Shown: in pieces, positions 11,955-50,913 of the stretch
Layout: each line of letters starts with the position of its first letter
How positions within the stretch are numbered: position 1 is the stretch's first letter
Assembly (NCBI RefSeq): GCF_000970025.1
Contig: NZ_CP009528.1
Location: 806,001-870,000, forward strand
Source: Methanosarcina barkeri MS
GTDB lineage: Archaea; Halobacteriota; Methanosarcinia; Methanosarcinales; Methanosarcinaceae
Length of the DNA: 64,000 bases
Direction of reading: 5' to 3'
Made by a program: the position numbers and the translations under genes
The notes under the pieces: model-generated
Database searches by the model: none
Told to the model about the DNA's origin: nothing
The model's input: the letters and a program-made list of their open reading frames with translations, nothing else

Positions 11955-13085
11955 TTATGATTTATGGAATGCCACTACTTTAGTCATTTCCAATTTTGCC
12001 AGGCATAGATCGCCTGTATGCAGTCTCAGAGCATCAACACACTGCGCAGGCACCTCTGCAGTCAGGGTTTTGTTATATCTGGCAAGTTTAAGTGTGATGC
12101 GCTTTTTTGGTCCCTTATTGGTTATACTATTGATACGGGCGGAGTAAGTGTTGTCATTTTGATTTTCAGAACGTGAGTCAGGCAAAAGAAGAGTGATGTT
12201 CTCAGGATGAATTCCCCAGAAAACTTTATCTCCAGGTTCGAATCTCTGAGTTTTTATCCTTAAAATCAGGTCTCCACTTTTTAACACTGTACATTTTGAC
12301 TCTTCGTCACATTCTTTAACATAAGCGTCATTGAAAATATTTGATATCCCAACTAGTTCTGCCACATGCAAGTTATTAGGATGATAAAATATTTCTTCCG
12401 GGGTCCCGAACTGTTGAGCTTTTCCCTCATATAAGACAAGAATCTTGTCGGCAAGCTGGAAAGCTTCTTCCAAACTGTGGGTGATAAACAACACAGGTAT
12501 CCCAATTTTGGTTTGCAAATCTCTTATTTTTTGTGCAAGTCTGGTTCTAATTTCCAGATCAAGTGCAGAGAATGGTTCGTCCAGAAGCAAAATTTCAGGT
12601 TTGGGAGCCAGTGCCCTTGCCAGAGCTACTCTCTGTTTTTGCCCACCTGACAGCTGGGATGGATATCGGGTTTCCAGCTCCTCAATATGAAGAAGGCTTA
12701 GCATTTCTCGAACCCTTTCTTCCTTGGATTCTTTCTCCCAGCCTTTGAGCCCACATTCTATATTTTTTCTTACATTCATATGGGGAAAAAGAGTATAGCT
12801 CTGGAAAACATAACCCAGGTTGCGTTTCTGAATAGGCAGGTTGATTTTATTCTCTTTGTCGAAATAAACTTTATTTCCTACGGTTATTTTTCCCTCATCA
12901 AGATCCGTAATTCCGGATATGCATTTAAACAGTGTGGTCTTTCCTGACCCTGAAGGTCCAAAAAGTACGACAAGTTCGTTTTCCATTTCAAAGCTGACAT
13001 CTAACGCAAAGGATTTCTTAATGCCTTTTTTCTCATTGGTATTAGCTTCGTTATACTGTTTTTTAAGTTTAATTTTAACGCCCAA
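11955..13085 (-). CDS. modC: Molybdate/tungstate ABC transporter ATP-binding protein
   Basis: The ATPase drives uptake of molybdate or tungstate through ModB. Motifs in order are Walker A LFGPSGSGKTTLFK near residue 40, Q-loop YVFQSYTLFP, signature LSGGQKQRVALARALAP, Walker B ILLLDEPFSALD and switch His in FITHSLEEAF. The C-terminal 130 residues form the TOBE/MOP regulatory domain of this family, which binds oxyanion. The start is a TTG at 13085, five bases after GAGGTAT. It begins two bases after the modB stop, so the two are translationally coupled. Without ModA in the window, Mo and W cannot be told apart. The nearby Mo- and W-type dehydrogenase operons support either. Confidence 0.92.
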   Translation of the reverse strand: MGVKIKLKKQYNEANTNEKKGIKKSFALDVSFEMENELVVLFGPSGSGKTTLFKCISGITDLDEGKITVGNKVYFDKENKINLPIQKRNLGYVFQSYTLFPHMNVRKNIECGLKGWEKESKEERVREMLSLLHIEELETRYPSQLSGGQKQRVALARALAPKPEILLLDEPFSALDLEIRTRLAQKIRDLQTKIGIPVLFITHSLEEAFQLADKILVLYEGKAQQFGTPEEIFYHPNNLHVAELVGISNIFNDAYVKECDEESKCTVLKSGDLILRIKTQRFEPGDKVFWGIHPENITLLLPDSRSENQNDNTYSARINSITNKGPKKRITLKLARYNKTLTAEVPAQCVDALRLHTGDLCLAKLEMTKVVAFHKS

Positions 13086-13087
13086 AA

Positions 13088-13765
13088 CTATACCTCTAAT
13101 TTTCCTATGAATCGTCCAGTTAGAGATATAGCCAGCAGGGATATAAGAATAAGGATTAAGACCAGAGTCTGAGCAAGTTCATCATTGCCTGCCTGAAAAG
13201 CACTGTATATCGAGAGAGACATTGTGTTCGTTTTTCCCGGAATGTTCCCTGCAAGCATAAGTGTTGCTCCGAATTCTCCGACAGCCCTTGCAAAACTGAG
13301 TACCAGCCCGGCCAGTATACCCCTTTTTGCAAGGGGGAGGGTTATTAGGAGAGCAGTTTCAGTTTCACTTCTTCCAAGGATATAGGCTGCATATTCAAGC
13401 TCTTTATCTACTGCTTCAATGGCTGCCTGAGCAGCTCTCACCATAAGAGGAAGGGAAACTGTATAAGCCGCAATGACTGCTGCCTGCCAGGTAAACATGA
13501 TCCCAGTGCCAAAAAAGTTGTAAATGAAATGGCCAAGAAGGCCTTTTCTACCTACAAAAATAACCAGAAGATATCCTATTACGGTGGGTGGGAGAACTAG
13601 AGGTAGTGTTACTAAAAGCTCTGCAAGTTCTTTTCCCCAGAAATCACGCCTCGCAAATACATAAGCTATGATTATGCCAGTGCAAAGGACCAGAACTGAT
13701 GATATGGTTGCTACCCAGAGCGTAAGAGATAAAGGAAACCATACCTTATCCAACATAATGACCAT
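13088..13765 (-). CDS. modB: Molybdate/tungstate ABC transporter permease
   Basis: This 225-residue protein has five or six hydrophobic segments and the conserved cytoplasmic coupling loop RAVGEFGATLMLAG near residue 165, a hallmark of ModB/WtpB permeases. The motif LPLVLPPTVIGYLL near residue 52 also fits. It forms the membrane channel for the ModC ATPase encoded just downstream. No substrate-binding protein gene (modA or wtpA) is beside it in this window, although the gene order modABC is usual; it may be elsewhere. The Mop-type protein gene lies upstream on the same strand. Confidence 0.93.
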   Translation of the reverse strand: MVIMLDKVWFPLSLTLWVATISSVLVLCTGIIIAYVFARRDFWGKELAELLVTLPLVLPPTVIGYLLVIFVGRKGLLGHFIYNFFGTGIMFTWQAAVIAAYTVSLPLMVRAAQAAIEAVDKELEYAAYILGRSETETALLITLPLAKRGILAGLVLSFARAVGEFGATLMLAGNIPGKTNTMSLSIYSAFQAGNDELAQTLVLILILISLLAISLTGRFIGKLEV

Positions 13766-14096: not shown

Positions 14097-14306
14097 TTAA
14101 TCTGTACCGATTATCACATTTGAAGCCTTGACAATTGCGTATACCTCGCTTCCTTCTTTTAGCTTCAGATTTTCAGCTGAGGTTTTTGTAATGATAGATG
14201 TCATTTCTACTCCGCCAGGCAATTCTATTACGATTTCAGAATTGACCATCCCCGTAACAATACTTTTAACCTTTCCTTTTAAAACATTGCGTGCACTTAA
14301 TTTCAT
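14097..14306 (-). CDS. Mop-type molybdopterin/molybdate-binding TOBE protein
   Basis: The 69-residue protein is a single TOBE (MOP) domain. It starts KLSARNVLKGKVKSIVTG and contains VNSEIVIELPGG followed by a SIITKTSAENLKL-type stretch. Such proteins form hexamers that bind molybdate or tungstate in the cytoplasm, for storage or homeostasis. The length matches stand-alone Mop proteins, and the ribosome-binding site GGAGGAGC precedes the ATG. It sits upstream of modB-modC on the same strand and 1.2 kb from the fmd operon, fitting a metal-supply role. Confidence 0.92.
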   Translation of the reverse strand: MKLSARNVLKGKVKSIVTGMVNSEIVIELPGGVEMTSIITKTSAENLKLKEGSEVYAIVKASNVIIGTD

Positions 14307-15335: not shown

Positions 15336-15526
15336 TTGAATTTGCTAAATAATAATTGTAGAGATTTTTATGATATTGTTTTCTGCAACTCACGAACAAC
15401 ATTTATTGAGAATAAATATTGTTTAATAACTATTATATATTATATTTATTATATAAATATGCACAGTATCTTATCTGATATTCAGATTCAAAAATAATAG
15501 CAGTTGAACCTTTGGGGGTGTATACA

Positions 15527-16160
15527 TTGCATAAAAACTCGCACTTAGAGAAAGAAGCTATGGAAGTAATCATGAAGCAGATAAAAGATCCTGAACTGCT
15601 TTCACAGATTGAATAGGTCGTTCTCTTTCATGGCTTCCTGACTTCAGTGGCATTAATCGGTATCCAGATGCTCAATATTGCAAATAGAGAGCTCGACGTC
15701 CAGGGTGGGAAGCGCAGGTGGGGAGCGCATATACGTGACCTGCGAAACGAAAAGCTGCATGCCTGGTCCATCCCATATCCTTGCCGGAGCGACCATCGGA
15801 AACAATGGATTAAAGATCGTTAATTTGGGGGAAATGGCGGTCACGGTAAACAAACAGGCGTCTGAGGAAGCTAGTAGTATAAAAGGGACCGACTTATTCT
15901 CGGCTCTGAAAAAACGAAGGATTATCCTAAACTCTGCGCCTGGTTTCTGAACACTGAAAAACTTCCTCATACAGAGGGTATCCAATCCTTCTGGATGCAG
16001 GGGAGAAGGTCTATTCCTAGAACTCTGTAGATGTAGAAGTTCCGATACGCAAAAAAAGCGAATTCAGTGCTGTGAAATATGCGGTTAAATGGTCATTCAA
16101 CACGATAACGAACTGCTGTGCGGCAGTAGTTGCACAGAACAATGTTGGGAGGTTAGCAAA
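15527..16160 (+). pseudogene. fmdE: Decayed fmdE gene at the head of the fmd operon
   Basis: The frame starts at TTG 15527 after GGGGGTG and reads HLEKEAMEVIMKQIKDPELL. It stops at TAG 15614 and continues in frame with VVLFHGFLTSVALIG, the start of an FmdE domain. A 13-base tandem duplication (GGTGGGAAGCGCA/GGTGGGGAGCGCA, 15704-15729) then shifts the frame. The next part reads ERIYVTCETKSCMPGPSHIL, then LAGATIGNNGLKIVNLG. Further shifts give DYPKLCAWFLNTEKLPHT, VDVEVPIRKKSEF and a final zinc ribbon CEICG-stop-MVIQ...CGSSC. M. barkeri carries fmdE first in fmdEFACDB, so position agrees. At least one stop, one duplication and two more shifts make the gene dead. Confidence 0.85.
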
Positions 16161-17201
16161 ATGCAAGAAGATATGATATTGTCTGTCTTTGCTGAAATAA
16201 AAGGCAAGCAATTAATCTATTACCCTGAAAGATGCATTGGCTGCGGGACCTGCGTACAGGCATGCCCCAAAGGCAACCTGGCAGTTGGAGCTGTTGGAGC
16301 TATAACAAGAGGTTTGTTAGATGCGGATTTTCTGGAAATGAAAGACAGTGAAGCCTGCCTTGTCTGTGAAATTTGTGCGAAAGTTTGTCCCACAGGTGCT
16401 CTTGAAATGAAGCAGGAAGGAAAAATCCTCACTGACGCGTCTTATCTTTTCAGGGCTATGAAGCCGACGTCAGTAAACGAAAGCTGTGTCCACTGTGGGC
16501 TTTGTGAGGATATATGCCCTCAAGGCTGTATTGAGGTAACCCGCGAAATTTCAGCAGATGGAAAACTGCAACTTGTCGGCAAGACCAATATTGATACCGA
16601 ATGCTGTATCCACTGCGGCTGGTGTGCAGCAGTCTGTCCGGTGAATGCTATTTCTGTAGAAAAGCCTTTTGAAGGGCACTGGACCAGGGATGAAGATGTC
16701 TGCCAGACCTGCCACACCTGTGTGGAAGTCTGTCCTGCAAATGCCATTTTCAATAAAAAGGCTAAACCTGGCGAAAGAGTCGAAAAGCTCACTCACCGTC
16801 CGGATGCCTGCATTTACTGTGGAGCCTGTGCAGTTTCCTGTCCTGTTAACGCCATTGATGTCAGAAAAACTGCAGTTCTTCCGGAGATGGAGAAAAAAGG
16901 CGTTCTTGAAAAAAAACTGCTTGAAGTCCCTGTTCCGGAAGCTTTGCTCCGCACCTGCCTGGAAACGGATGAAAATGCATGCCTGGGCTGCGGAAACTGT
17001 GTAATAGTCTGTCCAGTGAATGCCCTTTCTGACTGTGAACTTGCAGCCGGGCACCTGAACAACATGGACGAAAAAGCTCTTCTAGGGGTTAAAAACGGAA
17101 GAATTTCAGTCATAGACCAGGAACGCTGTGGAGCAGATGGAGCCTGCGCCATGATCTGTCCTGTTGATGCAATCAGGCTTGTAAAGAAAGAGGTGGAATA
17201 A
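16161..17201 (+). CDS. fmdF: Polyferredoxin subunit of formylmethanofuran dehydrogenase
   Basis: The 346-residue protein carries eight ferredoxin-type cluster motifs of the form CxxCxxCxxxCP, beginning with CIGCGTCVQACPKG and CLVCEICAKVCPTG and ending with CGADGACAMICPVD. In the last one Asp replaces the second Cys. It should pass electrons to the Mo-pterin subunit FmdB. An open frame extends upstream to 16089, but those codons are the zinc-ribbon end of the fmdE pseudogene. I chose ATG 16161 because GGGAGG at 16147-16152 lies eight bases before it. The stop codon abuts the fmdA ATG, so the operon is tightly coupled. Confidence 0.93.
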   Translation: MQEDMILSVFAEIKGKQLIYYPERCIGCGTCVQACPKGNLAVGAVGAITRGLLDADFLEMKDSEACLVCEICAKVCPTGALEMKQEGKILTDASYLFRAMKPTSVNESCVHCGLCEDICPQGCIEVTREISADGKLQLVGKTNIDTECCIHCGWCAAVCPVNAISVEKPFEGHWTRDEDVCQTCHTCVEVCPANAIFNKKAKPGERVEKLTHRPDACIYCGACAVSCPVNAIDVRKTAVLPEMEKKGVLEKKLLEVPVPEALLRTCLETDENACLGCGNCVIVCPVNALSDCELAAGHLNNMDEKALLGVKNGRISVIDQERCGADGACAMICPVDAIRLVKKEVE

Positions 17202-18956
17202 ATGGCAGGAACAATTGCAATTAAGAACGGATACGTCTTTGATTCCCTCAATGAAATAAATGGGGAAATTATGGATATCTTTATCAAGGACGGAAAAGTT
17301 GTAAGAGAGCTTTCTGCGGCTGAATTGAAAAATGCAAAGTTTATTGATGCCTCTGGTATGACGGTCATGCCTGGTGGAGTTGACTCCCATTCTCACGTTG
17401 CAGGTTCAAAGGTTAACGCTGGCAGGTCGATGCGTCCCGAAGATCATTATAAAACAACTCTCCAGAAGACTTCACTTACCCATTCAGGCTCAGGTTACAC
17501 TGTTCCCTCTGTCTACAAACAGGGATACGATTACGCAGCAATGGGCTATACAACTGTTTTTGAAGCTGCAATTCCCCCTCTTGAAGCTCGCCATACCCAT
17601 GAAGAGATGCGTTCTACTCCACTCCTTGATATGGGAGGATACCTGGTACTTGGAAACAACTTCTTTTTGATGCGCTATCTCCATGATGGGGACATAGAAA
17701 AGGCTGCGGCTTATGTGGCCTGGATGATGAAGACTCACAAGTCCTATGGGATAAAATGTGTCAACCCTGCAGGAGTCGAAAACTGGGGCTGGGGTAAAGA
17801 CGTACATTCTCTTGATGAAGCCAACATCCATTTCGAAATTACCCCAAGAGAAACTATAAAAGGGCTTAGCGAGGTCAATGAACTCCTCGGCATGCCTGTA
17901 CCTCTTCACCTGCATGCAAATAACCTGGGACATCCTGGTTGCTACGGAATTACCAAGGATTCCCTCAAAATCCTCGACGGTGTAAAGCCCAGGCAGGACA
18001 TGGATGTGGAATGGGCTGAAACCAAAATAGACCCTTCACGGAACCGTTCCGTATACCTCGCCCACATGATGTTTAACAGTTTTGCAGGCACTTCCTGGAG
18101 AGACTGTGAATCCGGAGTAAAAGATATTGCAGAATACATCAACAATAAAGATCATGTAGTAATCGATAGTGGATGCACTCCCTTCGGAGAAGCTACGGTT
18201 ATGACAGGAGATGGGCCTGCCATCCAGGATATGTACAAGCTTACAGGAAACAAATGGTCTAATACTGACGTTGAGATGGAGGGTGGGTCAGGTGTTATTC
18301 CCTTCACTTACTTCAAAGCCAATCCGGTACACAGCCTCCAGTGGGCAATGGGCCTTGAATGTCTCCTGCTCATCAATGATCCCTGGAAGACAATTATGAC
18401 CACGGACAGCCCCAATGGTGGTCCGTTTACGAAATATCCTGAGGTTATGACCTGGATCATGTCTGAGGCTTTCAGGAAACAGACCTTCAGCGAATGTCAC
18501 AAATGGGCAAACGACAGGAGTGAACTTGGAGGCATAAACCGGGAACTTTCCCTCTATGACCTTGCGATTCTGACCAGAGCAAATCCCGCTAAAACAATTG
18601 GCATGGCTCACAGAAAAGGTTCTCTTGGATTGGGCGCTGATGGAGATGTTACAGTCTATAACATAAATCCACAGCAGCTTGACACAAACAACTATGAAGC
18701 TCTACTTCAGGCTTTCAGGAAGGCCGAATACACCGTAAAGGGTGGCGAAATTGTATCTGTGAAGGGCGATATTGTTTCCGTACCTGAAAAGCGGACTTAT
18801 TATTCTGAAGTACATGTAGAAGACGAGCAGGAAAAGGAAATGCTGGCTGATGTTAAGGAGTGGTTCAGGTACTACACTCTGGGCTTTGCTAACTATCCAA
18901 CTCCAGAAAAGTATCTACAAAATCCGACTCCCATAAAGATTAACGTTGTGAGGTGA
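17202..18956 (+). CDS. fmdA: Formylmethanofuran dehydrogenase subunit A
   Basis: FmdA is the amidohydrolase subunit that joins formate to methanofuran (or hydrolyses formylmethanofuran) in the first step of CO2 reduction to methane. The 584 residues hold the binuclear metal site pattern: GGVDSHSHVAGSKVNAGRS near residue 57, a Lys in YGIKCVNPAG, His in LHLHANNLGHPG, His in YLAHMMFNSFAGTSW and Asp in TTDSPNGGPF. The length is usual for the family. It starts one base after the fmdF stop, with GAGGTGG as ribosome-binding site. A second copy (fwdA) lies at 27052. Confidence 0.97.
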   Translation: MAGTIAIKNGYVFDSLNEINGEIMDIFIKDGKVVRELSAAELKNAKFIDASGMTVMPGGVDSHSHVAGSKVNAGRSMRPEDHYKTTLQKTSLTHSGSGYTVPSVYKQGYDYAAMGYTTVFEAAIPPLEARHTHEEMRSTPLLDMGGYLVLGNNFFLMRYLHDGDIEKAAAYVAWMMKTHKSYGIKCVNPAGVENWGWGKDVHSLDEANIHFEITPRETIKGLSEVNELLGMPVPLHLHANNLGHPGCYGITKDSLKILDGVKPRQDMDVEWAETKIDPSRNRSVYLAHMMFNSFAGTSWRDCESGVKDIAEYINNKDHVVIDSGCTPFGEATVMTGDGPAIQDMYKLTGNKWSNTDVEMEGGSGVIPFTYFKANPVHSLQWAMGLECLLLINDPWKTIMTTDSPNGGPFTKYPEVMTWIMSEAFRKQTFSECHKWANDRSELGGINRELSLYDLAILTRANPAKTIGMAHRKGSLGLGADGDVTVYNINPQQLDTNNYEALLQAFRKAEYTVKGGEIVSVKGDIVSVPEKRTYYSEVHVEDEQEKEMLADVKEWFRYYTLGFANYPTPEKYLQNPTPIKINVVR

Positions 18957-18960
18957 GGTA

Positions 18961-19866
18961 ATGACAGAGGGAGTTCTTATTAATAAAAATGAAATTGAGA
19001 GTAATCTTGAGGCAGTTATAAAGCCTGGCTCATTTACTGGTGAAAGTGCTGGAGAAATAGCAGAAGTAATACTTATTCCTAAAAAAGCGATTGACATTAA
19101 ACTGGAAGCCGATGTTATAACTCCTGATTCTTTTGCAGGCAAAAGTGCTGAAGAAATAGGAGACCTGTCCGTCTGGCAGGGGCCAAAGACCTATCCTCTC
19201 TCCGATTTTTTTGAAGTAACAGGCAGTGCAGGCATTTCTGCAGCTGATACACTCATCCGCATAAAAGGTGACGTAATGAGGGTCAAAAGGATCGGGGAAG
19301 GCATGAGCGCAGGAAAAATCGAAATTGAAGGTTCTGCTGGCATGCATGTAGGTACCGAGATGAAAGGAGGAGAGATCGTTGTTTATGGAGACGCCGATTC
19401 CTGGGCAGGTATGGAAATGACAGGCGGCCTCCTGACCATAAAAGGCAATGCCGGAGACCATGTGGGCTGCGCTTACAGAGGAAAATGGCACGGCATGAAA
19501 GGTGGTCGCATCGTTATTGAAGGTTCTGTACGTCACCAGCTCGGAGGCGGCATGGACGGTGGTGAAATTATAGTCGAAGGCGATGTTAAAAGCTTCTGCG
19601 GAATTCGCCAGAACGGTGGTCTCATCTTCGTAAAAGGCAGCGCTCTTCGTGGAGTAGGTGCTGAAATGGCAGGAGGCACCATAGTTATAGGAGGCAAAAT
19701 CGAGCGCTTCTCCCCAGGTTTCGAATTTGTATCCATGGAAAATAGCGTTACATCCGGAGAGGTTGAGTTAATAGGGGAATTCAAGAAATTCACAGGGGAC
19801 TATGCAATTAACAAGCGGGCAAAAGGAACGCTTTACGTGGTTGCAGACACAAACCCGGAGCTATGA
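18961..19866 (+). CDS. fmdC: Formylmethanofuran dehydrogenase subunit C
   Basis: FmdC is the beta-helical structural subunit, related to the C-terminal domain of glutamate synthase. Repeated Gly-rich turns such as MKGGEIVVYGDADSWAG, MTGGLLTIKGNAGDHVG and MDGGEIIVEGDVKSF run through residues 110-260. At 301 residues it is longer than the second copy in this window (257). The extra part is N-terminal: EAVIKPGSFTGESAGEIAEV is followed by ADVITPDSFAGKSAEEIGDL, an apparent in-frame duplication of the first conserved segment. The gene starts four bases after fmdA. Confidence 0.94.
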   Translation: MTEGVLINKNEIESNLEAVIKPGSFTGESAGEIAEVILIPKKAIDIKLEADVITPDSFAGKSAEEIGDLSVWQGPKTYPLSDFFEVTGSAGISAADTLIRIKGDVMRVKRIGEGMSAGKIEIEGSAGMHVGTEMKGGEIVVYGDADSWAGMEMTGGLLTIKGNAGDHVGCAYRGKWHGMKGGRIVIEGSVRHQLGGGMDGGEIIVEGDVKSFCGIRQNGGLIFVKGSALRGVGAEMAGGTIVIGGKIERFSPGFEFVSMENSVTSGEVELIGEFKKFTGDYAINKRAKGTLYVVADTNPEL

Positions 19867-19876
19867 GGTGAGAATC

Positions 19877-20266
19877 ATGGAAGTATTACTCATTAGCGGA
19901 AGTACGATTAATGAAGGCAGGCTTGCCAAAGGTGGGGACAAATTCACAGACGAGTACACTATGGAATGTGCCTCGTGCTGGATATCTCCTGTAGATTTTT
20001 CATCACTATGCGCCCCTGAGAAAGTGAAAGTAACAAGCCATAATGGGAAACATTCGATTGTAGTTTATACCAAATGTACGGATGCAGTCCAGCCAGGGCA
20101 GGTTTTTATGCCAAGGGCTATCTGGTCGAATGTTATCATAGATCCTGATACTCTTTCCACTGGTTCTCCTCTCTATAAGGGTGCCCCAGTAATAATTGAG
20201 CCCACTGATGAAGAGGTTCTTAGCGCCGAAGATGTAGTATTGAAAGTTTATATCGGAGGTCAATGA
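19877..20266 (+). CDS. fmdD: Formylmethanofuran dehydrogenase subunit D
   Basis: FmdD is the small subunit equivalent to the C-terminal, molybdopterin-dinucleotide-binding domain of formate dehydrogenase. Here it has 129 residues, with MEVLLISGSTINEGRLAKGG at the start and PGQVFMPRAIWSNVIIDPDT in the middle, which match the family. The longer open frame upstream overlaps fmdC and is not used: GAGGTGA at 19865-19871 points to the ATG at 19877. Its end overlaps the first possible fmdB start, so D and B are translated together. They form the pterin-binding pair. Confidence 0.95.
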   Translation: MEVLLISGSTINEGRLAKGGDKFTDEYTMECASCWISPVDFSSLCAPEKVKVTSHNGKHSIVVYTKCTDAVQPGQVFMPRAIWSNVIIDPDTLSTGSPLYKGAPVIIEPTDEEVLSAEDVVLKVYIGGQ

Positions 20267-20268
20267 GT

Positions 20269-21633
20269 ATGATTTACAAAAACATAGTCTGTCCGGTCTG
20301 TGGGGCAGCCTGTGACGATATCCAGGTTGAATTCGGAGACGGGAAGATTGAAGCTAAAAACGCATGTAAGATGGGAAATGCCAAATTTCAGGAAGTTGTA
20401 AGTTCCCACCGTCTCAGGCAGCCCCTTATAAAGAAGGACGGAAAACTGACACCTTCTGCCTGGGACGAAGCTCTTGAAAGAGCAGCCGATATTCTTGTTT
20501 CAGCAAAGCGTCCCCTGCTTTTCATGGGTAGTGAAACCTCTTCTGAGGCACATGAAATAGGGCTCAAGCTAGGGGAATACCTTGGTGCAATTGTTGATTC
20601 CAATGCCACTATCTGTCACGGGCCAACAGCTATGGGAATTCAGGAATCCGGAAAAGTCGGTGCAACTGAAGGTCAGAAGAAAAACAGGGCTGATCTCCTA
20701 GTTTACTGGGGAACTAATCCTCTTGAATCCATGCCGAGACAGATGTCAAGGTACGCAGTTTTCCCGAGGGGTTACTGGACAAAACGCGGACGTTTTGACA
20801 GGACAGTTATCACTGTAGACCCGAGAAAAACCCCAACTACTGAAGCTTCCGATCTGCATGTTCAGCTTAAACCCGATTCGGATTTTGAACTGATCAGTGC
20901 ACTTCTCACTCTACTTCACGGAAAAACTCCCCATCCCTCAGTAGAAGAGATTACTGGAGTTCCCATCCCTGTTATGGAAGAGATGCTCGATATGATGAAG
21001 AATTGCACCTTTGGGGCTATTTCAGTGGGGCTCGGGCTTGCTTCTTCAATGGGGAAGTACAGAAACTCCGAGATTGCCATGAATTTCGTAAAGGAACTGA
21101 ACAACTATGCCAAGTTCACCCTTGGAGCTCTCCGCGGCCATTGCAATGTTGCAGGCTTTAATCAGGTGGCTGCCTACATGTACGGCTACCCCTTTGGGCT
21201 TGACTTCATGCGCGGGCATCCGCGTTATAACCCCGGAGAATTCACAACAGTGGATGTGCTTCGAGAAAAAGATGTTGACACAGTTTTCGTTATGTGTGCT
21301 GACCTTGTATCTCATATCCCTGCAGATTGTGCAGCTTACCTTGCAAAAATTCCAATGATCTGCGTGGATATCGCTCCCTGCCCGACAGTATCCGCTTCGG
21401 ATATTGTACTTCCGGGAGTCATTGATGCTATGGAGTGTGATGGGACCTTCTACAGGCTCGACGATGTGCCAGTTCACTTCGAACCCTTTACAAGCTCGCC
21501 TTTCAAGTTCACGAAGAGCAACGAGGACACCTTAAAACAGCTCTTTGAGAAAATTAGAAAAAAAGGTCAGGTTATTTCTCTTCCTTCTATAAATAAAGAA
21601 GGAGAAGGACTGATACCTGAAAATTTGCCTTAA
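20269..21633 (+). CDS. fmdB: Formylmethanofuran dehydrogenase subunit B (Mo/W pterin)
   Basis: FmdB is the catalytic redox subunit that reduces CO2 to formate at a Mo or W bis-pterin site. The N-terminus has a 4Fe-4S motif, CPVCGAACDD with a later Cys in KNACKMG. A Cys in NATICHGPTAMG at about residue 116 is the expected metal ligand, so this is the cysteine form and not selenocysteine. The body shows YWGTNPLESMPRQMSRYAVF and MRGHPRYNPGE, typical of the family. I chose the ATG at 20269 because GGAGGT at 20255-20260 is eight bases upstream; ATG 20263 is too close. The Mo assignment rests on the fmdEFACDB gene order known from M. barkeri. Confidence 0.95.
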   Translation: MIYKNIVCPVCGAACDDIQVEFGDGKIEAKNACKMGNAKFQEVVSSHRLRQPLIKKDGKLTPSAWDEALERAADILVSAKRPLLFMGSETSSEAHEIGLKLGEYLGAIVDSNATICHGPTAMGIQESGKVGATEGQKKNRADLLVYWGTNPLESMPRQMSRYAVFPRGYWTKRGRFDRTVITVDPRKTPTTEASDLHVQLKPDSDFELISALLTLLHGKTPHPSVEEITGVPIPVMEEMLDMMKNCTFGAISVGLGLASSMGKYRNSEIAMNFVKELNNYAKFTLGALRGHCNVAGFNQVAAYMYGYPFGLDFMRGHPRYNPGEFTTVDVLREKDVDTVFVMCADLVSHIPADCAAYLAKIPMICVDIAPCPTVSASDIVLPGVIDAMECDGTFYRLDDVPVHFEPFTSSPFKFTKSNEDTLKQLFEKIRKKGQVISLPSINKEGEGLIPENLP

Positions 21634-25744: not shown

Positions 25745-27067
25745 ATGCCCGTAATCAAAGACGTAGTATGTTCCCTTTGCGGATGTCTCTGCGATGATAT
25801 AACAGTCACAGTTGAGGATAACAAAATAATGGGTGTAAAAAATGCCTGCATTCTCGGTCACAGTAAGACCGTTGGAGTACAGACTCATGATCGAATCAAA
25901 ACACCCATGATTAGAAAAGACGGGGAACTTGTCGAAGTAACATACGAGGAGGCAATCGATGCTGCTGCAAGGATCCTAGCAAACTCAAGAAGGACTCTTT
26001 CTTACGGTTGGTGCTCCACATCCTGCGAAGCGATAAGCAAAGCGATCCAGTTAGCTGAGGAGACCGGTTCCGTAATTGACTCTACTGCTAACGTTTGTCA
26101 CGGTCCTTCAGCTCTTGCTACCCAGGAAAAAGGAAACCCTGGAGCAACTCTTGGAGAGATCAAAAACAGATCAGATCTGATCATCTTTTGGGGCTGCAAC
26201 CCCATACATGCCCACCCTCGCCATATGACCCGTTATTCAAGTTTTTCCAGGGGCTTTTTTACTCCAAATGGGCGAAAAGACCGGAAGATGGTGGTAATCG
26301 ACGTGCGAAAAACTGATACTGCAAAACGTGCCGATAAATATATCGAAATCGAACAGGGTTCGGATCTCCTGCTGGTAACAGCACTTCGCTCAGCAATCAA
26401 TGGGCATGAAGCGGCTATTCCGAAAAACGTGGCCGGGGTTTCAAAGGCCGAAATTCTAGGACTTGCCGAACTCATGAAAAACTCCAGGTTTGTCTCCATT
26501 TTATTCGGCATGGGCATAACACAGTCTCGTTCCAAGTACAAGAACGGTGATGCAGTATCTTCCCTTATCTCAGACCTGACCCAGCACACAAAAGCTATCA
26601 TGATGGGAATGAGAGGCCACTATAACGTATCAGGTTTCGGGGAAGTCGCAACCTGGGAGACCGGTTATCCGATGGCAATTGACTTTTCAAAAGGTTATCC
26701 CTACTACAATCCTGGAGAAACGGGAGCAAACGACGTTCTTGTCAGGGAAGAGGTTGATGCGGCAATTGTTGGAGCTGCGGACCCAGGAGCACACTTCCCA
26801 CAAAAGGCAGTCCGGCACCTTGCAAGAATTCCCCTGATTCAAATTGACCCTTATCCAAACCCAACAACTGAACTTGCCGATGTAGTGATCCCTGCAGCAG
26901 TTGTGGGTATTGAAGTCGAAGGCACAGCCTACCGTATGGATGCAATCCCAATCAGGATGAAGAAACTTATCGCTACCGAGTTCAAAACCGATGAAGAGAT
27001 CTTAAAGGACCTGATTGTAAAAGTAAGAGAACTGAAGCGAGGTGAAGTAACATGTCAGAGTTATTGA
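25745..27067 (+). CDS. fwdB: Formylmethanofuran dehydrogenase subunit B, second copy
   Basis: The 440-residue catalytic subunit has the N-terminal 4Fe-4S motif CSLCGCLCDD plus Cys in KNACILG. The expected metal-ligand Cys is in STANVCHGPSALATQ at about residue 118. Conserved pieces such as FWGCNPIHAHPRHMTRYSSF and GYPYYNPGETGAND align with the first copy. GGAGGAAAAAT places the ribosome-binding site correctly. Its last 16 bases overlap fwdA, so the two are coupled. This enzyme reduces CO2 at a W or Mo pterin centre; with FmdF in the other operon, a polyferredoxin partner may be shared. Confidence 0.95.
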   Translation: MPVIKDVVCSLCGCLCDDITVTVEDNKIMGVKNACILGHSKTVGVQTHDRIKTPMIRKDGELVEVTYEEAIDAAARILANSRRTLSYGWCSTSCEAISKAIQLAEETGSVIDSTANVCHGPSALATQEKGNPGATLGEIKNRSDLIIFWGCNPIHAHPRHMTRYSSFSRGFFTPNGRKDRKMVVIDVRKTDTAKRADKYIEIEQGSDLLLVTALRSAINGHEAAIPKNVAGVSKAEILGLAELMKNSRFVSILFGMGITQSRSKYKNGDAVSSLISDLTQHTKAIMMGMRGHYNVSGFGEVATWETGYPMAIDFSKGYPYYNPGETGANDVLVREEVDAAIVGAADPGAHFPQKAVRHLARIPLIQIDPYPNPTTELADVVIPAAVVGIEVEGTAYRMDAIPIRMKKLIATEFKTDEEILKDLIVKVRELKRGEVTCQSY

Positions 27068-28767
27068 TTAAAAACGCAGTTGTCTGCGACCCGATTCAGG
27101 GAATAGACTGTGAAAAAATGGACCTGTGCATAAGAGATGGCAAGATCGTAGAAAGCGTGTCCTCAAATGCAAAGGTTATCGATGCTGAAGGCAGACTCAC
27201 GATGGCAGGAGGTTTTGACGGTCATACTCACAGCGCTGGTAAAATCAATGTGGGACGATCAATGAACCCTAACGACGCCAGACGAAACCTGGTCCCGGGC
27301 CTCTCAGGTCTTGAACCCCACACTGAAAAGACCAGGGCTCAGGTAGGGTACAACACCCCAAACACTTATGCAATCGGGTACAGGTATGCAAAACTGGGTT
27401 ACACAACCATTTGTGAAGCTGCAATGCCCCCTCTTACAGCAAGGCATACCCACGAGGAATTCAAAGAAATCCCAATTCTGGACAAAATGGGGCTCACCCT
27501 CTTTGGGAGCAACTGGCAGGTTATGGAATATATCCGGGATAAAGAGCCCGAAAAACTCGCAGCTTACATTGCTTGGGGTCTAAAAGCCTCAAGAGGTTAT
27601 GGCATAAAGATTGTAAATGCAGGTGGCGGAGAAGCATGGGGCTGGGGCAAGAATGTTAGCGGGCTCTATGACCCCGTGCCTAACTTTGACGTAACCCCTG
27701 CAGAAATTCTGCTGGGCCTAGGAGAAGCAAACGAAAAACTGTGTCTTCCTCATTCAGTTCATGTCCACTGTAACAATCTGGGGCACCCTGGAAACTATAA
27801 GACTACCATCGAGACAATGAAGCTTTTTGAGAAAGTTCAATCCAGGCGCAACAGGCAGAGTTTGCACGTAACTCATGTTCAGTTCAATGCCTATGCTGGC
27901 ACTTCCTGGCGTGACTTTGAGACCGGAGCTCCAATGATTGCAGACTACGTGAACGGAGTTAATCACCTGACCTTTGATCTCGGTCAGCTCATTTTCGGGC
28001 CTGCCGTTACTATGACTGCCGATGGCCCGGTTGAATACGCAAACTCAAGGATGTTAAAGGAGAAATGGAGTAACCAGGATGTGGAGCTGGAAGACGCATC
28101 CGGAGTGGTGCCACTGGTGTATTCCCCAAAGAGCTTTGTAAATGCAGTCCAGTGGGCAATAGGGATTGAACTGGCTCTGCTGGTAAAAGATCCGTGGAAG
28201 GTCATGTTCACAACGGATAGCCCTAATGGAGGATCCTTTGTTAATTATCCTGAAGCATACACCTACCTTATGAGTGAAAAGAAGAGGCAGGAGATCATTT
28301 TGGGCTTTCCGGAGACGGCCCTTAACAGAATGGTTCTTCCTGGCCTCGATAGGGAACTAAGTTTTTATGAACTTGCAATCATGACCAGAAGCATTCAGTC
28401 CAGGATTTACAGCAGGCCTGAGAAAGGAAACCTTGCAGTAGGAGCTGATGCAGACATTGCCATATATGATATTTTCCCGGATGCAATTGATCCCTCCGTA
28501 GAGCATGAAAAAGTAAAGAAAGCCTTCAGTGCTACAGCTTATACCATTAAGGGAGGAACAATCGTTGTCAAGGATGGAAATATTGAAAACACACCCATGG
28601 GGAGGACTTACTGGGTAAACGCAACGGTCCCATCAGATATTGAATGTGCGATGCAGAAAGACCTTGACGTTAAGTTCCAGAAATACTATACTGTGAGCAA
28701 GTCTAACTACATGGTAGAGGATGCATACGTCCCAAAACCTGTTGAAATCGCAACGGAGGGATTCTAA
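27052..28767 (+). CDS. fwdA: Formylmethanofuran dehydrogenase subunit A, second copy
   Basis: The 571-residue amidohydrolase subunit carries the metal site: GGFDGHTHSAGKINVGRS near residue 53, Lys in YGIKIVNAGGGEAWGWGK, His in SVHVHCNNLGHPG, His in LHVTHVQFNAYAGTSW and Asp in FTTDSPNGGSF. It is clearly homologous to fmdA at 17202 but the DNA differs widely, so the duplication is old. GAGGTGA at 27038-27044 is the ribosome-binding site. It forms the formyl-transfer chamber with fwdB. Confidence 0.96.
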   Translation: MSELLIKNAVVCDPIQGIDCEKMDLCIRDGKIVESVSSNAKVIDAEGRLTMAGGFDGHTHSAGKINVGRSMNPNDARRNLVPGLSGLEPHTEKTRAQVGYNTPNTYAIGYRYAKLGYTTICEAAMPPLTARHTHEEFKEIPILDKMGLTLFGSNWQVMEYIRDKEPEKLAAYIAWGLKASRGYGIKIVNAGGGEAWGWGKNVSGLYDPVPNFDVTPAEILLGLGEANEKLCLPHSVHVHCNNLGHPGNYKTTIETMKLFEKVQSRRNRQSLHVTHVQFNAYAGTSWRDFETGAPMIADYVNGVNHLTFDLGQLIFGPAVTMTADGPVEYANSRMLKEKWSNQDVELEDASGVVPLVYSPKSFVNAVQWAIGIELALLVKDPWKVMFTTDSPNGGSFVNYPEAYTYLMSEKKRQEIILGFPETALNRMVLPGLDRELSFYELAIMTRSIQSRIYSRPEKGNLAVGADADIAIYDIFPDAIDPSVEHEKVKKAFSATAYTIKGGTIVVKDGNIENTPMGRTYWVNATVPSDIECAMQKDLDVKFQKYYTVSKSNYMVEDAYVPKPVEIATEGF

Positions 28768-29805: not shown

Positions 29806-29807
29806 AT

Positions 29808-29892
29808 CCATTTTTCATACAAATCCATTTTTCATACAAATCCATTTTTCATACAAATCCATTTTTCATACAAATCCATTTTTCACACAAAT
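29808..29892. repeat. 17-bp tandem repeat, five units
   Basis: The unit CCATTTTTCATACAAAT is repeated five times without gaps, the last with one change (CACAC). The array runs into the stop codon of the ABC-2 permease gene on the minus strand. Such perfect repeats usually vary in copy number between strains. Confidence 0.92.
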
Positions 29893-32278: not shown

Positions 32279-34276
32279 TTAACACTTTATCCCTTCAACA
32301 CTCCTGGAATTTATCTCTTCAACACTTCCTGAGTTTATCTTTTCAACACTTCTAGAGTTTATTCCTTCAACACTTCCTGAGTTTATCTCTTCAACACTTC
32401 CTGAGTTTATCTCTTCAACACTTCCTGAGTTTATCTCTTCAACATTTCTGGAAGTCAGCGTTTCCACAAGTTCTTTAACTGAAAAGGCATTGATTCCCAG
32501 ATGATTTGCAATCTCAACAACAGGGGGCTGGGTAAGCGAGGCCTTCTTGAGGGTTTCAGTGTCTTTTATAACTTCTTTTCCCTTTCCGTCTGCTATGATC
32601 TGCCCTTCATTCATTACTAGGATTCTTGTGGCATAGGACATAGCTACCTCAATATCGTGCGTGCAGAAAATCAGTGTCGAATTGTTGTTTTTGAAAAAAT
32701 CCATCATCTGTTCTATATTCACTTTATCTTGCCCTGTTGTGGGTTCATCGAGAAGAATAAGTTCTGGATTTATGGAAAGTACCGAAGCGACGGCTGTTCT
32801 GAGTCTTTGCCCTCTGCTCAGAGCTTGTGGGAGGTCATGCCTGAGAGGCAGAATTGACATGGCTTCAAGAGAGTTTCTTACTCTTTCCTCAACATTGCTG
32901 TACTTTAATTGAACAGGTCCAAACCTTACTTCTTCCTCAGCTGAATCACAGAAGAGCATAAGGTCAGGGTTCTGGAACACAAATCCGACCTTACCTGCAA
33001 AGGAGTATGGATTCTTGGGTCTAGTGTCCTCCCCAAAAACCCTCACACTTCCTTTATCTGGTTTGAGAATTGCTGCAAGGTGTAAAAGCAGGGTTGACTT
33101 ACCTGAGCCGTTCGTGCCCATAATCGCAACTCTTTCACCTTTACGGATTTCCAGATTTATTCCTTTCAATACCATCTTGTTTTTCTCATATCCTGACCAT
33201 AGGGCCTGAATGGAAATAATCGAATCATTGTTTTCAGAACCATTATCTCTATGAGCATTATTCCCATGAGCATTATTCCCATGAGCATTATTCCCATGAG
33301 CATTATTCCCATGAGCATTGTTTTCAGAATCATTATTTCCATGAGCATTATTTTCAACGGAAGCTTTCTTTGAACTGGTTTTCTTTGAACTAGTCTTGGT
33401 TACAGGATTTTTATCTGGATTCTGAATAAGTTGTTGAGGTATTCTATTATTTTCTTTAATTTCTCTGTCTAGTACAGCAAGAGCTCCGCTGACACTCAAA
33501 GGGCTGGCTTTAATTCCAAGGCTATGGCAGAGCTTGACTGGTTCAGGAATTCGAAGCCCTAGCCTGTAAAAGATCTCAAGATTATCAAAAGCTTTTGAGG
33601 CGGGCTGATCAAAGACTATTTTTCCATTGTCCATTATAACAACTCTGTCTACAAATGGTGCAAGCTCATGTAGTCTGTGTTCAACCAGCAGAATAGTTGT
33701 TTTCAGTTTTCTATTGAGTTCCCTTACCGTATTCAGGACTTCGTGCGTGCCCATGGGGTCCATCTGGCTTACAGGTTCATCCATGGCAAGGATTTCAGGC
33801 TCCATTGCAAGCATACTTGCAATGCAGATCCTTTGTTTCTGTCCACCGGAAAGTGAATTTGTCGAGTCCAGCCTGTGATCGGACATCCCTACGATTTGCA
33901 AGGCTTCTGTTACCTTTTTATCGATTTCTTTTTGCTCAAAGCAGAGGTTTTCAGGCCCAAAAGCTACTTCGTCCTCAACTATTGTAGAAAATATCTGGTC
34001 ATCTGGATTCTGAAACACAAGGCCTACTTCTTTCGAGATTTCCATCTGGTTTGAATCAGTGGTTTCCATCCCTTTGACTTTCACACTTCCAGATAATATT
34101 CCTCCAGATTCATGAGGAATGATTCCGTTTAATGTTTTTAGTAAAGTACTTTTTCCACATCCAGTAGGTCCTGTAAGGAGAACAAATTCTCCTTTTTCTA
34201 CTCTAAGGTTGATTCCCTTTAAAGTCGGTTCCGATCTTCCTGGATATGTATACCATAAGTCTTTGATTTCTATCAT
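32279..34276 (-). CDS. Fused double ATPase of an ECF transporter, repeat-rich
   Basis: Two ABC ATPase domains are joined in one 665-residue chain. Domain 1 (1-240) has Walker A GPTGCGKSTLLKTLNG, signature LSGGQKQRICIASML and Walker B ILAMDEPVSQMD. Domain 2 (about 350-590) has GTNGSGKSTLLLHL, a weaker signature ALSRGQRLRTAVASVL and LILLDEPTTGQD. The linker has a repeat of Asn-Asn-Ala-His-Gly units, and the C-terminus has seven copies of an eight-residue EEINSGSV-like unit. These tails are low-complexity additions not needed for the fold. It powers the ECF importer with the T and S-like proteins encoded beside it. Confidence 0.93.
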   Translation of the reverse strand: MIEIKDLWYTYPGRSEPTLKGINLRVEKGEFVLLTGPTGCGKSTLLKTLNGIIPHESGGILSGSVKVKGMETTDSNQMEISKEVGLVFQNPDDQIFSTIVEDEVAFGPENLCFEQKEIDKKVTEALQIVGMSDHRLDSTNSLSGGQKQRICIASMLAMEPEILAMDEPVSQMDPMGTHEVLNTVRELNRKLKTTILLVEHRLHELAPFVDRVVIMDNGKIVFDQPASKAFDNLEIFYRLGLRIPEPVKLCHSLGIKASPLSVSGALAVLDREIKENNRIPQQLIQNPDKNPVTKTSSKKTSSKKASVENNAHGNNDSENNAHGNNAHGNNAHGNNAHGNNAHRDNGSENNDSIISIQALWSGYEKNKMVLKGINLEIRKGERVAIMGTNGSGKSTLLLHLAAILKPDKGSVRVFGEDTRPKNPYSFAGKVGFVFQNPDLMLFCDSAEEEVRFGPVQLKYSNVEERVRNSLEAMSILPLRHDLPQALSRGQRLRTAVASVLSINPELILLDEPTTGQDKVNIEQMMDFFKNNNSTLIFCTHDIEVAMSYATRILVMNEGQIIADGKGKEVIKDTETLKKASLTQPPVVEIANHLGINAFSVKELVETLTSRNVEEINSGSVEEINSGSVEEINSGSVEGINSRSVEKINSGSVEEINSRSVEGIKC
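32287..32450. repeat. 24-bp tandem repeat coding the EcfA C-terminal tail
   Basis: About seven units of CTTCAACACTTCCTGAGTTT-type sequence (24 bp each) lie inside the 3' end of the double ATPase gene. The period is a multiple of three, so copy changes keep the reading frame. Confidence 0.9.
33241..33350. repeat. 15-bp tandem repeat coding the EcfA linker
   Basis: Units of CATTATTCCCATGAG, five codons each, code for the Asn-Asn-Ala-His-Gly linker between the two ATPase domains. Four units are near-perfect and others are diverged. Confidence 0.9.
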
Positions 34277-34284
34277 TGTACCAC

Positions 34285-34584
34285 AACCTTTCCAAGGGAA
34301 AGCTTGCCCGCAAACCTTTTGAGAAAAGGTTTGATCGAAAACCCCTTACGGCGACGTGATCAACCGGCGCAACGGTTGGGCTTGATCGAAAACCCCCGAG
34401 TAATGTCGCAATCCTTTCCAAATGAAAACCTGACCACAAGCCTTTTGAGAAAAGGCTTGATCGAAAATCCCCAAGTAATGGCAATCCTTTCCAAATGAAA
34501 GCCTGACCACAAGCCTTTTGATAAAAAGCTTGATCGAAAACCCTGAGTAATGGCAATCCTTTCCAAGGGAAAGCTTGACCACGG
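34285..34584. repeat. 73-bp tandem repeat array with conserved hairpins
   Basis: Units start at 34285, 34410, 34483 and 34555 with AA(T/C)CCTTTCCAA; the second and third are 73 and 72 bp, the first carries an insertion and the last is cut short. Each has a hairpin: AAACCTTTT-GAG-AAAAGGTTT, AAGCCTTTT-GAG-AAAAGGCTT, and a third with changes. The A-T to G-C change on both sides of the stem preserves pairing. CTTTCC...GGAAAG adds a smaller hairpin in the outer units. The array lies between the S-like gene and the double ATPase gene, so it is transcribed within the operon. Confidence 0.88.
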
Positions 34585-48429: not shown

Positions 48430-50913
48430 ATGGAGCTTGAACCTGAACATCTTTACAAACTGGATAAACTGGTCACTCTCCTAAGTATCTCAGAAGACCT
48501 TTCAATTGTGTTTGTGCGCTGCAATGAACCAGTTCTCTGCAATGCGCTCTATACGGAGACTGTTAAAAGGCTGGAAGGCGAACTTTTTATTTATGATATC
48601 AACATGAGTGAGTCTTCTCCTGATCTTTTGAAGTTGCTAAACGAGGCGAAAGCATCGGAATTATATACTCAAAACATAAAAGGAAATAAAAAGGTAGCAT
48701 TCTTCGTTTTTGGATTAGATAAAGCAATAGAGAAAAAGACCAGTGAGGGAAAATCTGAAGCGCTTCTTCTTTTGAATATGATGCGAGAGCGCTTTCTGAC
48801 CATTGAAAATCCTGTAATAATCTGGATTAACAGTATTTCTCTTTCAAAAATCCTCAAAGAAGCGCCGGATTTTTTTTCCTGGCGTACCACTGTCCTTGAA
48901 TTTGACATGAAAAAAGAAGAAGTTGTAAGAGCAGCTATTGATTTTGGTGACACGGAGCTTGAATCCTTAAGCAAAAAGGAACTTGAAGACAGGTGGGAGT
49001 ATTACTCTCGCCTATTGAAGGAATATCACGAAAAAGGAACAATTGATTCTCAAAAGTTTGCTTACTGGAATTACAAGCTTGGAATGATTAAATTGCTCAG
49101 AGGCTATTCTAAAGAAGCGATAACCTATTTTCAAGAATCTCTTAAAATTTCCCGGCAGATAGGGGATCGTCGTGGAGAATGCGCAGTCCTTGGAAAACTT
49201 GGGAATGCCTGTAGTGACGTTGGCGAAGTGAAAAAAGCTATTGAATATTATGAGCGTGCTCTTTTTATTTCACATGAAGTCGGTGATCAACACAGTGATG
49301 GAGTACTTCTTGGCAACCTTGGTAGTTCCTACCTCCATCTCGGTGAAGTTACTAAAGCTATCGAATATTATGAGCAGGCTCTTCTAATTTCTCGAAAAAT
49401 TGGAGATCGGCGTGGAGAAGGAATAAATCTTGGCAACCTTGGTAGTTCCTACCTCCATCTTGGTGAAGTTACTAAAGCTATTAAATATTATGAGCAGGCT
49501 CTTGTAGTTTCTCGAGAAATTGGTGATCGACGCAATGAGGGTGGGCTCCTTAGCAACCTTGGTAGTTCCTACTTCCATCTAGGTGAAGTTACTAAAGCTA
49601 TCGAATATTATGAGCAGGCTCTTTTAATTTCTCGAGAAATTGGTGATCGACGCGCAGAAGGAAATAATCTTGGCAACCTAGGTAGTTCTTATCATTCTCT
49701 TGGCGAAGTTACTAAAGCCATCGAATATTATGAGCAGGCTCTTGTAGTTTCGCGAGAAACTGGCGATCTGAATGGGGAGGAAAATCATCTTGGTAACCTT
49801 GCTAGTTTCTATTATTATCTTGGTGAGATGAAGAAGGCTCTTGGATATTATGAACAGGCTCTTTTAATTTCGCGTAAAATTGGTGATCGACGTGGTGAAG
49901 AAACTCACCTTGGTAACCTTGGTAACGCTTTGCGAAATCTTGGTGAAGTCACCAAGGCTATTGAATATTATGAACAGGCTCTTTTAATTTCACGTGAAAT
50001 TGGTGATAAGCGTGGAGAAGAAAATCATCTTGGTAGGCTTGGGGTTGCCTATAGTGATCTTGGTGAGATGAAGAAGGCTCTCGGATATTACGAACAGGCT
50101 CTTTTAATTTCACGTGAAATTGGCGATCGGCGTGGTGAAGAAACTCACCTTGGCGACCTCGGTAATATCTATAATGATCTTGGTGAAATTGCTAAAGCTA
50201 TTGAATGTTATGAGCAGGCTCTTTTAATTTCACGTGAAATTGGTGACCGACACGGAGAAGGAAGTCATCTGAATAACCTTGGTAACTCTTACTATCGTCT
50301 TGGTGAAATCAAGAAAGCTATTGAATATTATGAACAGGCTCTTTTAATTTCACGTGAAGTAGGTGATCGACATGGGGAAGGAAACCGGCTTGGAAATCTA
50401 GGCAACGCATACGAAGATCTTGGTGAATTTACTAAAGCGATTAAATATTATCAGCAGGCACTTGCAATTTCAAAAAAAACTGGATATCGGCGTGGGGAAG
50501 GACACCACCTTTGCAACATTGGTACTTCATACAGCAATCTTGGTGAATTCACTAAATCTATCGAATATTACGAGCAAGCTCTTATTATCTCTCAGGAAAT
50601 TGGTGATAGGCGCAACGAAGAATCAATTCTTGGTAATCTTGGTAGTTCCTATGGTTCTCTTGGTGAAATAAATAAAGCATTTGGATATTTTGAGCGAGCT
50701 CTTTCAATTTCGCGAGAAGTTGGTGATCGACACGGGGAAGCCAGATGGCTTTGCAATCTTGGCGTTATTTATCTGCAATTTGGTGACCTAAATAAAGCAA
50801 TTGAATTTCTCGAAATGTCTCTTCTAATAGGCAAAGAACTCAAAGATCCTATAATAATTGATTTGTGTGAACACCAATTAAACTCTCTTAAAAAACAAGT
50901 AAATAAAATTTAA
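48430..50913 (+). CDS. TPR protein with degenerate P-loop-like head
   Basis: The 827-residue protein has a globular N-terminal region (1-200) and then TPR repeats. The head has strand-helix patterning of a P-loop NTPase (SIVFVRCNEPVLCNALYTET, KVAFFVFGLDKAI, PVIIWINSISLSKIL) but no Walker A or B acidic residues, so it is probably a binding module. Fourteen 40-residue repeats of the GDRRGEGNNLGNLGSSY type fill residues 245-804. I chose ATG 48430, with AGAGGTG upstream. With the ATPase gene just before it, a two-component STAND-like machine is plausible. No effector domain is visible. Confidence 0.85.
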   Translation: MELEPEHLYKLDKLVTLLSISEDLSIVFVRCNEPVLCNALYTETVKRLEGELFIYDINMSESSPDLLKLLNEAKASELYTQNIKGNKKVAFFVFGLDKAIEKKTSEGKSEALLLLNMMRERFLTIENPVIIWINSISLSKILKEAPDFFSWRTTVLEFDMKKEEVVRAAIDFGDTELESLSKKELEDRWEYYSRLLKEYHEKGTIDSQKFAYWNYKLGMIKLLRGYSKEAITYFQESLKISRQIGDRRGECAVLGKLGNACSDVGEVKKAIEYYERALFISHEVGDQHSDGVLLGNLGSSYLHLGEVTKAIEYYEQALLISRKIGDRRGEGINLGNLGSSYLHLGEVTKAIKYYEQALVVSREIGDRRNEGGLLSNLGSSYFHLGEVTKAIEYYEQALLISREIGDRRAEGNNLGNLGSSYHSLGEVTKAIEYYEQALVVSRETGDLNGEENHLGNLASFYYYLGEMKKALGYYEQALLISRKIGDRRGEETHLGNLGNALRNLGEVTKAIEYYEQALLISREIGDKRGEENHLGRLGVAYSDLGEMKKALGYYEQALLISREIGDRRGEETHLGDLGNIYNDLGEIAKAIECYEQALLISREIGDRHGEGSHLNNLGNSYYRLGEIKKAIEYYEQALLISREVGDRHGEGNRLGNLGNAYEDLGEFTKAIKYYQQALAISKKTGYRRGEGHHLCNIGTSYSNLGEFTKSIEYYEQALIISQEIGDRRNEESILGNLGSSYGSLGEINKAFGYFERALSISREVGDRHGEARWLCNLGVIYLQFGDLNKAIEFLEMSLLIGKELKDPIIIDLCEHQLNSLKKQVNKI
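49162..50841 (+). repeat. 120-bp repeat array coding 14 TPR units
   Basis: Fourteen in-frame 120-bp units code the TPR array. Neighbouring units share long identical stretches such as CTTGGTGAAGTTACTAAAGC and TATTATGAGCAGGCTCTT, suggesting recent duplication or gene conversion within the array. Confidence 0.9.

Follow-up and report, generated by a model that had tools for sequence, protein, structure and literature searches.

Why does an operon whose other genes are all open begin with a gene that can no longer be read? The window, by which we mean the whole 64,000-nucleotide stretch analysed here (G000:C2:806001-870000 of a Methanosarcina-type genome), contains a second formylmethanofuran dehydrogenase operon (fmd2) that is headed by such a gene, fmdE2. 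An earlier note, made from the sequence alone, had called fmdE dead, broken by a stop and a 13-bp tandem duplication, and had taken the intact genes behind it to mean that FmdE is dispensable here or is supplied by another copy.

The fmd2 operon and its neighbourhood

The locus contains the following features:
11955..13765, minus strand: ABC transporter ATPase and permease genes, kept upstream of fmd2 in relatives
14097..14306, minus strand: TOBE-domain protein gene, kept upstream of fmd2 in relatives
15449..15456, plus strand: TATA-box-like TTATATAA, the same in all five aligned fmd2 loci
15514..15520, plus strand: ribosome-binding-site-like GGGGGTG before the TTG start
15527..16145, plus strand: fmdE2 pseudogene, from the TTG start at 15527 to the end of the ancestral frame (Pfam PF02663 match to a fragment; aligned as DNA to 15 homologues)
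16161..17201, plus strand: fmdF (polyferredoxin), open, full length
17202..18956, plus strand: fmdA (TIGR03121)
18961..19866, plus strand: fmdC (TIGR03122)
19877..20266, plus strand: fmdD (PF01568; NF042908 below cut-off)
20263..21633, plus strand: fmdB (TIGR03129), the 3' part from about 20830 unconverted and under purifying selection

The earlier claim that the remaining genes are intact holds: fmdF, fmdA, fmdC, fmdD, and fmdB are open and full length, and they stand in the fmdF-A-C-D-B order of a Mo-type formylmethanofuran dehydrogenase operon. The TATA-like box and the TTG start at 15527 are kept in all five fmd2 loci aligned. The TOBE and ABC transporter genes adjoin fmd2 in L065, L067, and L069, and the TOBE gene alone does so in the short contig L071. 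We take the ABC transporter genes to be modC/modB-like, and the TOBE-domain protein is presumably molbindin-like. Molybdenum is the putative metal of Fmd2; the neighbouring transporter genes are of the molybdate type.

Translation from an ATG at 16089, in frame with fmdF, would add half of the zinc ribbon of the dead FmdE to FmdF, and the fmdF open frame from this codon is 370 aa long compared with approximately 350. Since the frameshifts set the second half of the zinc ribbon (16089-16160) in the fmdF frame, automatic annotation may add a false N-terminal extension to FmdF.

A further fmdA/fwdA homologue (44% to FmdA) lies approximately 5 kb downstream of fmdB at 27061-28749 (G000:C2:833061-834749), so the same window also contains a formylmethanofuran dehydrogenase gene of a second kind. 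Elsewhere in the window, a long array of a 120-bp repeat at 49220-50740, with periods also of 240 and 360, looks like a coding repeat protein, and short tandem arrays occur at 29806-29892 (unit 17 bp), 32286-32448 (24 bp), 33226-33356 (units 15/30/45 bp), and 34380-34582 (73 bp).

Lesions of fmdE2

Homology to FmdE extends over the whole length of 15527-16145, and no single reading frame spans it. The Pfam FmdE match is a fragment from the middle of the gene (15678-15947; 43.2 bits against a cut-off of 22.9). Using the intact paralogue as the tblastn query, we found fmdE2 in two frames at approximately 52% identity, the match being split because of the frame breaks. These pieces bear out the earlier observation that FmdE can be read over several frames. 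Alignment with homologues located the following lesions, all on the plus strand:
15614..15616: TAG for a Lys/Arg codon (codon 19, METILK numbering), also in fmdE2 of the relative G029
15704..15729: 13-bp tandem duplication, private to the window's fmdE2
between 15888 and 15889: 1-base deletion
between 15981 and 15982: 1-base deletion
16018..16020: TAG in the ancestral frame, from TGG
between 16050 and 16051: 1-base deletion in an A-run
16086..16088: TAA in the ancestral frame, within the zinc ribbon
16125..16133: in-frame 3-base insertion somewhere in this stretch

The eight lesions thus comprise four frame-breaking indels, one in-frame insertion, and three in-frame stops; lesion lists for two diverged copies in relatives (G028_o and G016) are rough. 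The stop and the duplication first noticed are both present, but five further lesions and the in-frame insertion had been missed. The duplication is real: its copies (15704-15716 and 15717-15729) are 12/13 identical according to Tandem Repeats Finder, none of 100 dinucleotide shuffles reproduces the pattern, and it forms a clean +13 insertion relative to 15 homologues in the window's copy only. Its description as young goes beyond the data, because one differing position in 13 is too little to settle the age of the copies, and the decay includes seven further lesions, one of them older.

The frame-breaking lesions are unavoidable under any choice of annotation, and purifying selection has been lost (ratio of 0.46 compared with 0.06-0.13 in intact pairs). 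Judged from these alignments, the window's fmdE2 is a real pseudogene, which confirms that the gene is dead, and it is evidently dispensable.

Other FmdE-family genes in the genome

An intact fmdE1 is located at G000:C2:474395-474961, in a separate operon (fmd1) 347 kb away. It is open, stands together with fmdF at C2:474395-476020, and belongs to an operon that is complete including A, C, D, and B. The genome has two more PF02663 matches, of which that at C2:648350 is full-length and that at C2:3804190 is partial. The check for other fmdE copies proposed in the earlier note therefore yielded an intact one. Of the argument from intact downstream genes, the conclusion stands in that another copy exists and fmdE2 is dispensable, but the reasoning is confounded by gene conversion of these same downstream genes.

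Gene conversion from fmd1

We found that the middle of fmd2 is nearly identical to fmd1:
16217..20757, plus strand: gene-conversion tract, fmdF to 5' fmdB, source fmd1 (G000:C2:474983 onward)

The tract, whose bounds are the outermost fmd1-like informative sites of long runs, is approximately 99.6% identical to fmd1, with 18 differences between the copies. Every 100-bp block across 16300-20800 has 98-100% identity to fmd1 except one (94%). This identity is sharply bounded: outside the tract it is 74-86% over fmdE and 79-89% at 20800-21400, and the flanks are unrelated. The transporter genes, TOBE gene, and upstream DNA match the fmd2 loci L065, L067, and L069, and not the fmd1 loci compared.

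Trees were made from four parts of one operon alignment of 10 sequences, in which G004, G002, and G028 are the only single-operon relatives and which excludes G027_2 and the two G025 copies on account of contig ends or broken genes. The window copy pairs with fmd2 of G029 in the fmdE tree (0.981) and in the tree of fmdB 20800-21400 (0.932), while for 16300-20790 its partner is the fmd1 of its own genome (1.000), within an fmd1 group that also includes G004 and G029_1; the first 130 bases of fmdF give no resolved placement. This switch gives the direction of copying. The longest fmd1-like run spans 187 of the 440 informative sites, a length that none of 10000 permutations reached (largest, 51). 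Our data indicate that a gene conversion of approximately 4.5 kb replaced the central part of fmd2 with fmd1 sequence. Since a small fmd2-like spot lies inside the tract (16841-16856) and a short fmd1-like block occurs at 21403-21531, the tract may represent more than one event. Among the 18 tract differences, six alter an amino acid, and the majority of these six arose on the fmd2 side. In G003 and G029, the likeness between the genome's own two operon copies is weaker and patchy.

The shared TAG and selection on fmdE2

The closest relative, G029, carries an fmdE2 (L065) with the same TAG at the same codon, no indels, and a TGA at codon 164, and the TAG is the only lesion common to the two genes. 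In G003, G027, and G025, fmdE2 is open. From this distribution, the TAG at 15614-15616 is older than the other lesions of the window's fmdE2. A wholly young death of fmdE2 was rejected given the TAG common to G029, and a decay shared across the whole group was rejected given the open copies.

The codon replaced by this TAG encodes K or R in 62 of 64 alignment rows (some loci were entered twice). A PylS match over the cut-off was found both in the window's genome and in G029, and UAG is described as both a sense and a stop codon in such archaea in the available text of one study (PMC2933860). Because UAG can also encode pyrrolysine in such archaea, the TAG need not be the killing change. The stop that had been regarded as breaking the gene is thus present, but it is older, common to G029, and of a codon that can be read as pyrrolysine in this genus, so it is not clearly lethal. 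That it was tolerated through read-through before fmdE2 died is plausible but unproven.

We compared the changes on the two branches. After the shared TAG, the G029 branch accumulated 15 synonymous and 11 amino-acid changes plus 1 stop (ratio 0.22); neutral simulation expects 19-20 amino-acid changes or stops where 12 are found (P 0.0002-0.003 for kappa 2-6; P 0.004 for codons 20-163 alone), and fmdE2 of G029 thus seems to have remained under constraint. On the window's branch, 17 changes are synonymous, 26 alter an amino acid, and 2 create stops (ratio 0.46), that is, 28 amino-acid changes or stops against 32-34 expected (P 0.036-0.126). The NG86 ratio alone hinted at residual constraint in the window's fmdE2, and simulation with transition bias weakened this hint. 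Its neutrality is borderline (P 0.036 at kappa 2; P 0.04 for codons 20-163), and part of the branch may therefore still have been constrained.

Continued use of fmd2

The intactness of fmdF to 5' fmdB is by itself weak evidence of use because these genes were recently copied from fmd1. The unconverted end of fmdB is more telling. On the window branch, fmdB 20800-21400 has 19 synonymous and 4 amino-acid changes, a ratio of 0.07 (0.10 when the end is extended to 21630). The counts of synonymous changes versus amino-acid changes or stops, 19:4 in fmdB2 and 17:28 in fmdE2, differ (Fisher p=0.0007; p=0.045 on the G029 branch). Since fmdB2 is constrained (0.07) and fmdE2 is not (0.46), the former was retained and the latter given up. 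For the 5' end of fmdF2, the ratio on the G029 branch is 0.71 (few sites), as high as that of a decaying gene.

Published RNA data for M. barkeri MS, which we take to be the strain of this genome, show in the part of the source available that two Mo-fmdE copies, not matched to loci, respond in opposite directions (one up, one down), while values are equal or nearly so for the two fmdC copies and for the two fmdD copies (PMC8196204). Such equality is as expected if reads are indistinguishable inside the near-identical tract. Taken together, the constraint on the fmdB2 end and the responses reported for the Mo-fmdE copies in that partial source (PMC8196204) offer fair evidence that fmd2 may continue to be used.

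Decayed and FmdE-less fmd operons in relatives

We questioned whether an fmd operon with a broken fmdE, or none, is unusual. Within the genus, 25 of 30 genomes searched contain a total of 31 fmdF loci, of which 27 have an open fmdE in front and two, the window's and fmd2 of G029, a broken one. The remaining two had no fmdE match in front in a Pfam search: the second operon of G001, which we take to be M. acetivorans, and G016. In G016, the fmdE before an intact FACDB lies in ruins (L119 8100-10270), and a second fmdE, heading a relic with ruined fmdF and fmdA (L078 5195-6710), is also broken; since this genome is only 92% complete, a third fmdE copy could be missing. No PylS match over the cut-off was found in G016.

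At the family level, fmdF was found in 85 of 111 genomes (E 1e-70) and an fmdE match in 54 of 111 (E 1e-15), in a search that would miss very diverged FmdE proteins. No fmdE match was found in 33 of the 85 fmdF-bearing genomes, all within genera g11 and g12. In the four of these 33 that we inspected, F-A-C-D-B is kept in every case and fmdE was not found within 10 kb. FmdE-less fmd operons are thus common. Most FmdE-less genomes carry another PF02663 protein elsewhere, which could stand in for FmdE.

Other parts of fmd2 have failed as well. In G027 (C60, L069 8481-9559), fmdF2 is broken by a tandem duplication of approximately 40 bases and a TGA while fmdE2 is open. Since different fmd2 genes fail in different relatives, fmd2 appears to be under loose selection in the group. 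Separately, an isolated fmdE remnant in G028:C1 (L074 5450-6063) carries a 1-base deletion and is not followed by any fmd genes.

Alternative explanations

Could the damage be an assembly or sequencing artefact, with fmdE2 truly intact or the near-identical FACDB a collapsed repeat? In favour of this, the A-run deletion at 16050 is a typical error site, the sole one among the lesions. Against this, there are eight lesions including one common to an independent assembly, fmdE2 differs from fmdE1 by approximately 19% with unrelated flanks, and the tract itself separates the operon copies by 18 differences. Because the TAG recurs in an independent genome, the lesions are many, and amino-acid changes are in excess, we consider an artefact extremely unlikely. 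That the remnant is retained not for a protein but as a regulatory leader for fmdF is very unlikely: the promoter side is conserved and the remnant DNA is still approximately 88% identical to G029, but such identity is a product of recent common descent, and indels and substitutions are spread all over it. More weight, though still that of an unlikely outcome, falls to the idea that the whole of fmd2 is dying and that conversion merely masks the decay of an unused enzyme for now. The broken fmdF2 beside an open fmdE2 in G027, the single fmdF of G004, and the six amino-acid-altering tract differences, mostly on the fmd2 side, fit this idea; the ratio of 0.07 at the unconverted fmdB2 end, the retained promoter and start site, and the two regulated Mo-fmd gene sets seen in the accessible portion of the published data (PMC8196204) speak against it.

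A further alternative refines the decay of fmdE2 rather than excluding it. If the TAG is or was read as pyrrolysine, fmdE2 would have lived past it and died later, here through the +13 and -1 changes, whereas G029 would perhaps have lost only the zinc ribbon at its TGA. The TAG in two species without any other common lesion, the lack of indels and the shortfall of changes relative to neutral drift in G029, pylS over the cut-off in both genomes, the dual reading of UAG (PMC2933860, as far as its available text goes), and the Lys or Arg that it replaced (62 of 64 rows) all favour this course of events. Yet the two TAGs could have separate origins, downstream reinitiation is possible, G029 also has the in-frame TGA at codon 164, and an introduced amber codon was only partly read through in M. 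acetivorans, according to the same partial source (PMC2933860). We therefore regard pyrrolysine reading as possible, with the odds against it. A more specific version, that fmdE2 was an accidental pyrrolysine gene in which a Lys codon became TAG in the common ancestor and leaky read-through sustained a working FmdE2 at a reduced level as the first step to loss, is tentative and rather doubtful. If it were true, the sister species would still carry and constrain a TAG-bearing fmdE2 frame.

Proposed history

The best explanation overall, to which we assign a probability of roughly 0.86, is that fmd2 is an old paralogue whose fmdE2 decayed, that conversion from fmd1 rewrote fmdF to 5' fmdB, and that a second Fmd can still be made. 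As a paralogue of the main operon fmd1, fmd2 would have lost the role of its fmdE in, or shortly after, the common ancestor of G029 and the window species, either because FmdE comes in trans from fmdE1 or because Fmd does not need it. The TAG at the Lys codon would be the first visible change, tolerated for some time, and fmdE2 would then have decayed in the window lineage through indels and stops. At some point, the conversion of approximately 4.5 kb would have rewritten fmdF to 5' fmdB, ending just inside fmdF, so that the dead fmdE2 was spared, as was the end of fmdB, which is still of the fmd2 type. With its promoter, the fmdF start, and FACDB, the operon should still suffice for the production of a second Fmd enzyme, and in the window lineage fmd2 may owe its survival to conversion.

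This history carries a caution: an intact rest of the operon is not the same as selection, since intactness here was partly restored or renewed by copying. It also provides natural experiments on FmdE, whose function in methanogenesis is unsettled: operons with and without fmdE in one cell, a genome (G016) in which only ruined fmdE was found, and two genera in which none was found.

Comparison with known systems

Our searches of the open literature for an fmdE pseudogene, for fmd gene conversion in Methanosarcina, or for two fmd copies in M. barkeri did not find this case. The locus is a duplicate operon of a known kind in which a clear and instructive gene conversion adjoins the fmdE2 pseudogene, and the tolerated TAG poses the boldest question. 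As the available text describes the FmdE family PF02663 (PMC2954224), its members have an N-terminal core and a C-terminal zinc finger and a gene ahead of the fmd genes; the window's member shares this layout but is broken. M. acetivorans fmdF2A2C2D2B2, by the partial account available (PMC2838876), is likewise a second fmd operon that accompanies a complete fmdE1F1A1C1D1B1 and itself has no functional fmdE. There fmdE is absent, whereas the window keeps a recognisable, decayed fmdE and its FACDB has been converted. The TAG recalls the amber codons of the methylamine methyltransferases, where, in the portion of the source at hand (PMC2933860), UAG likewise lies inside a conserved frame in Methanosarcina. 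In contrast, the UAG of fmdE2 replaces an ordinary Lys codon, there is no sign that it was needed, and the gene then died. Finally, gene conversion of paralogous methanogenesis genes is known, with copies made alike as revealed by a tree switch and permutation. The known case involves one domain of two genes in one operon, while here approximately 4.5 kb and five genes were converted between two distant operons, with a pseudogene at the border.
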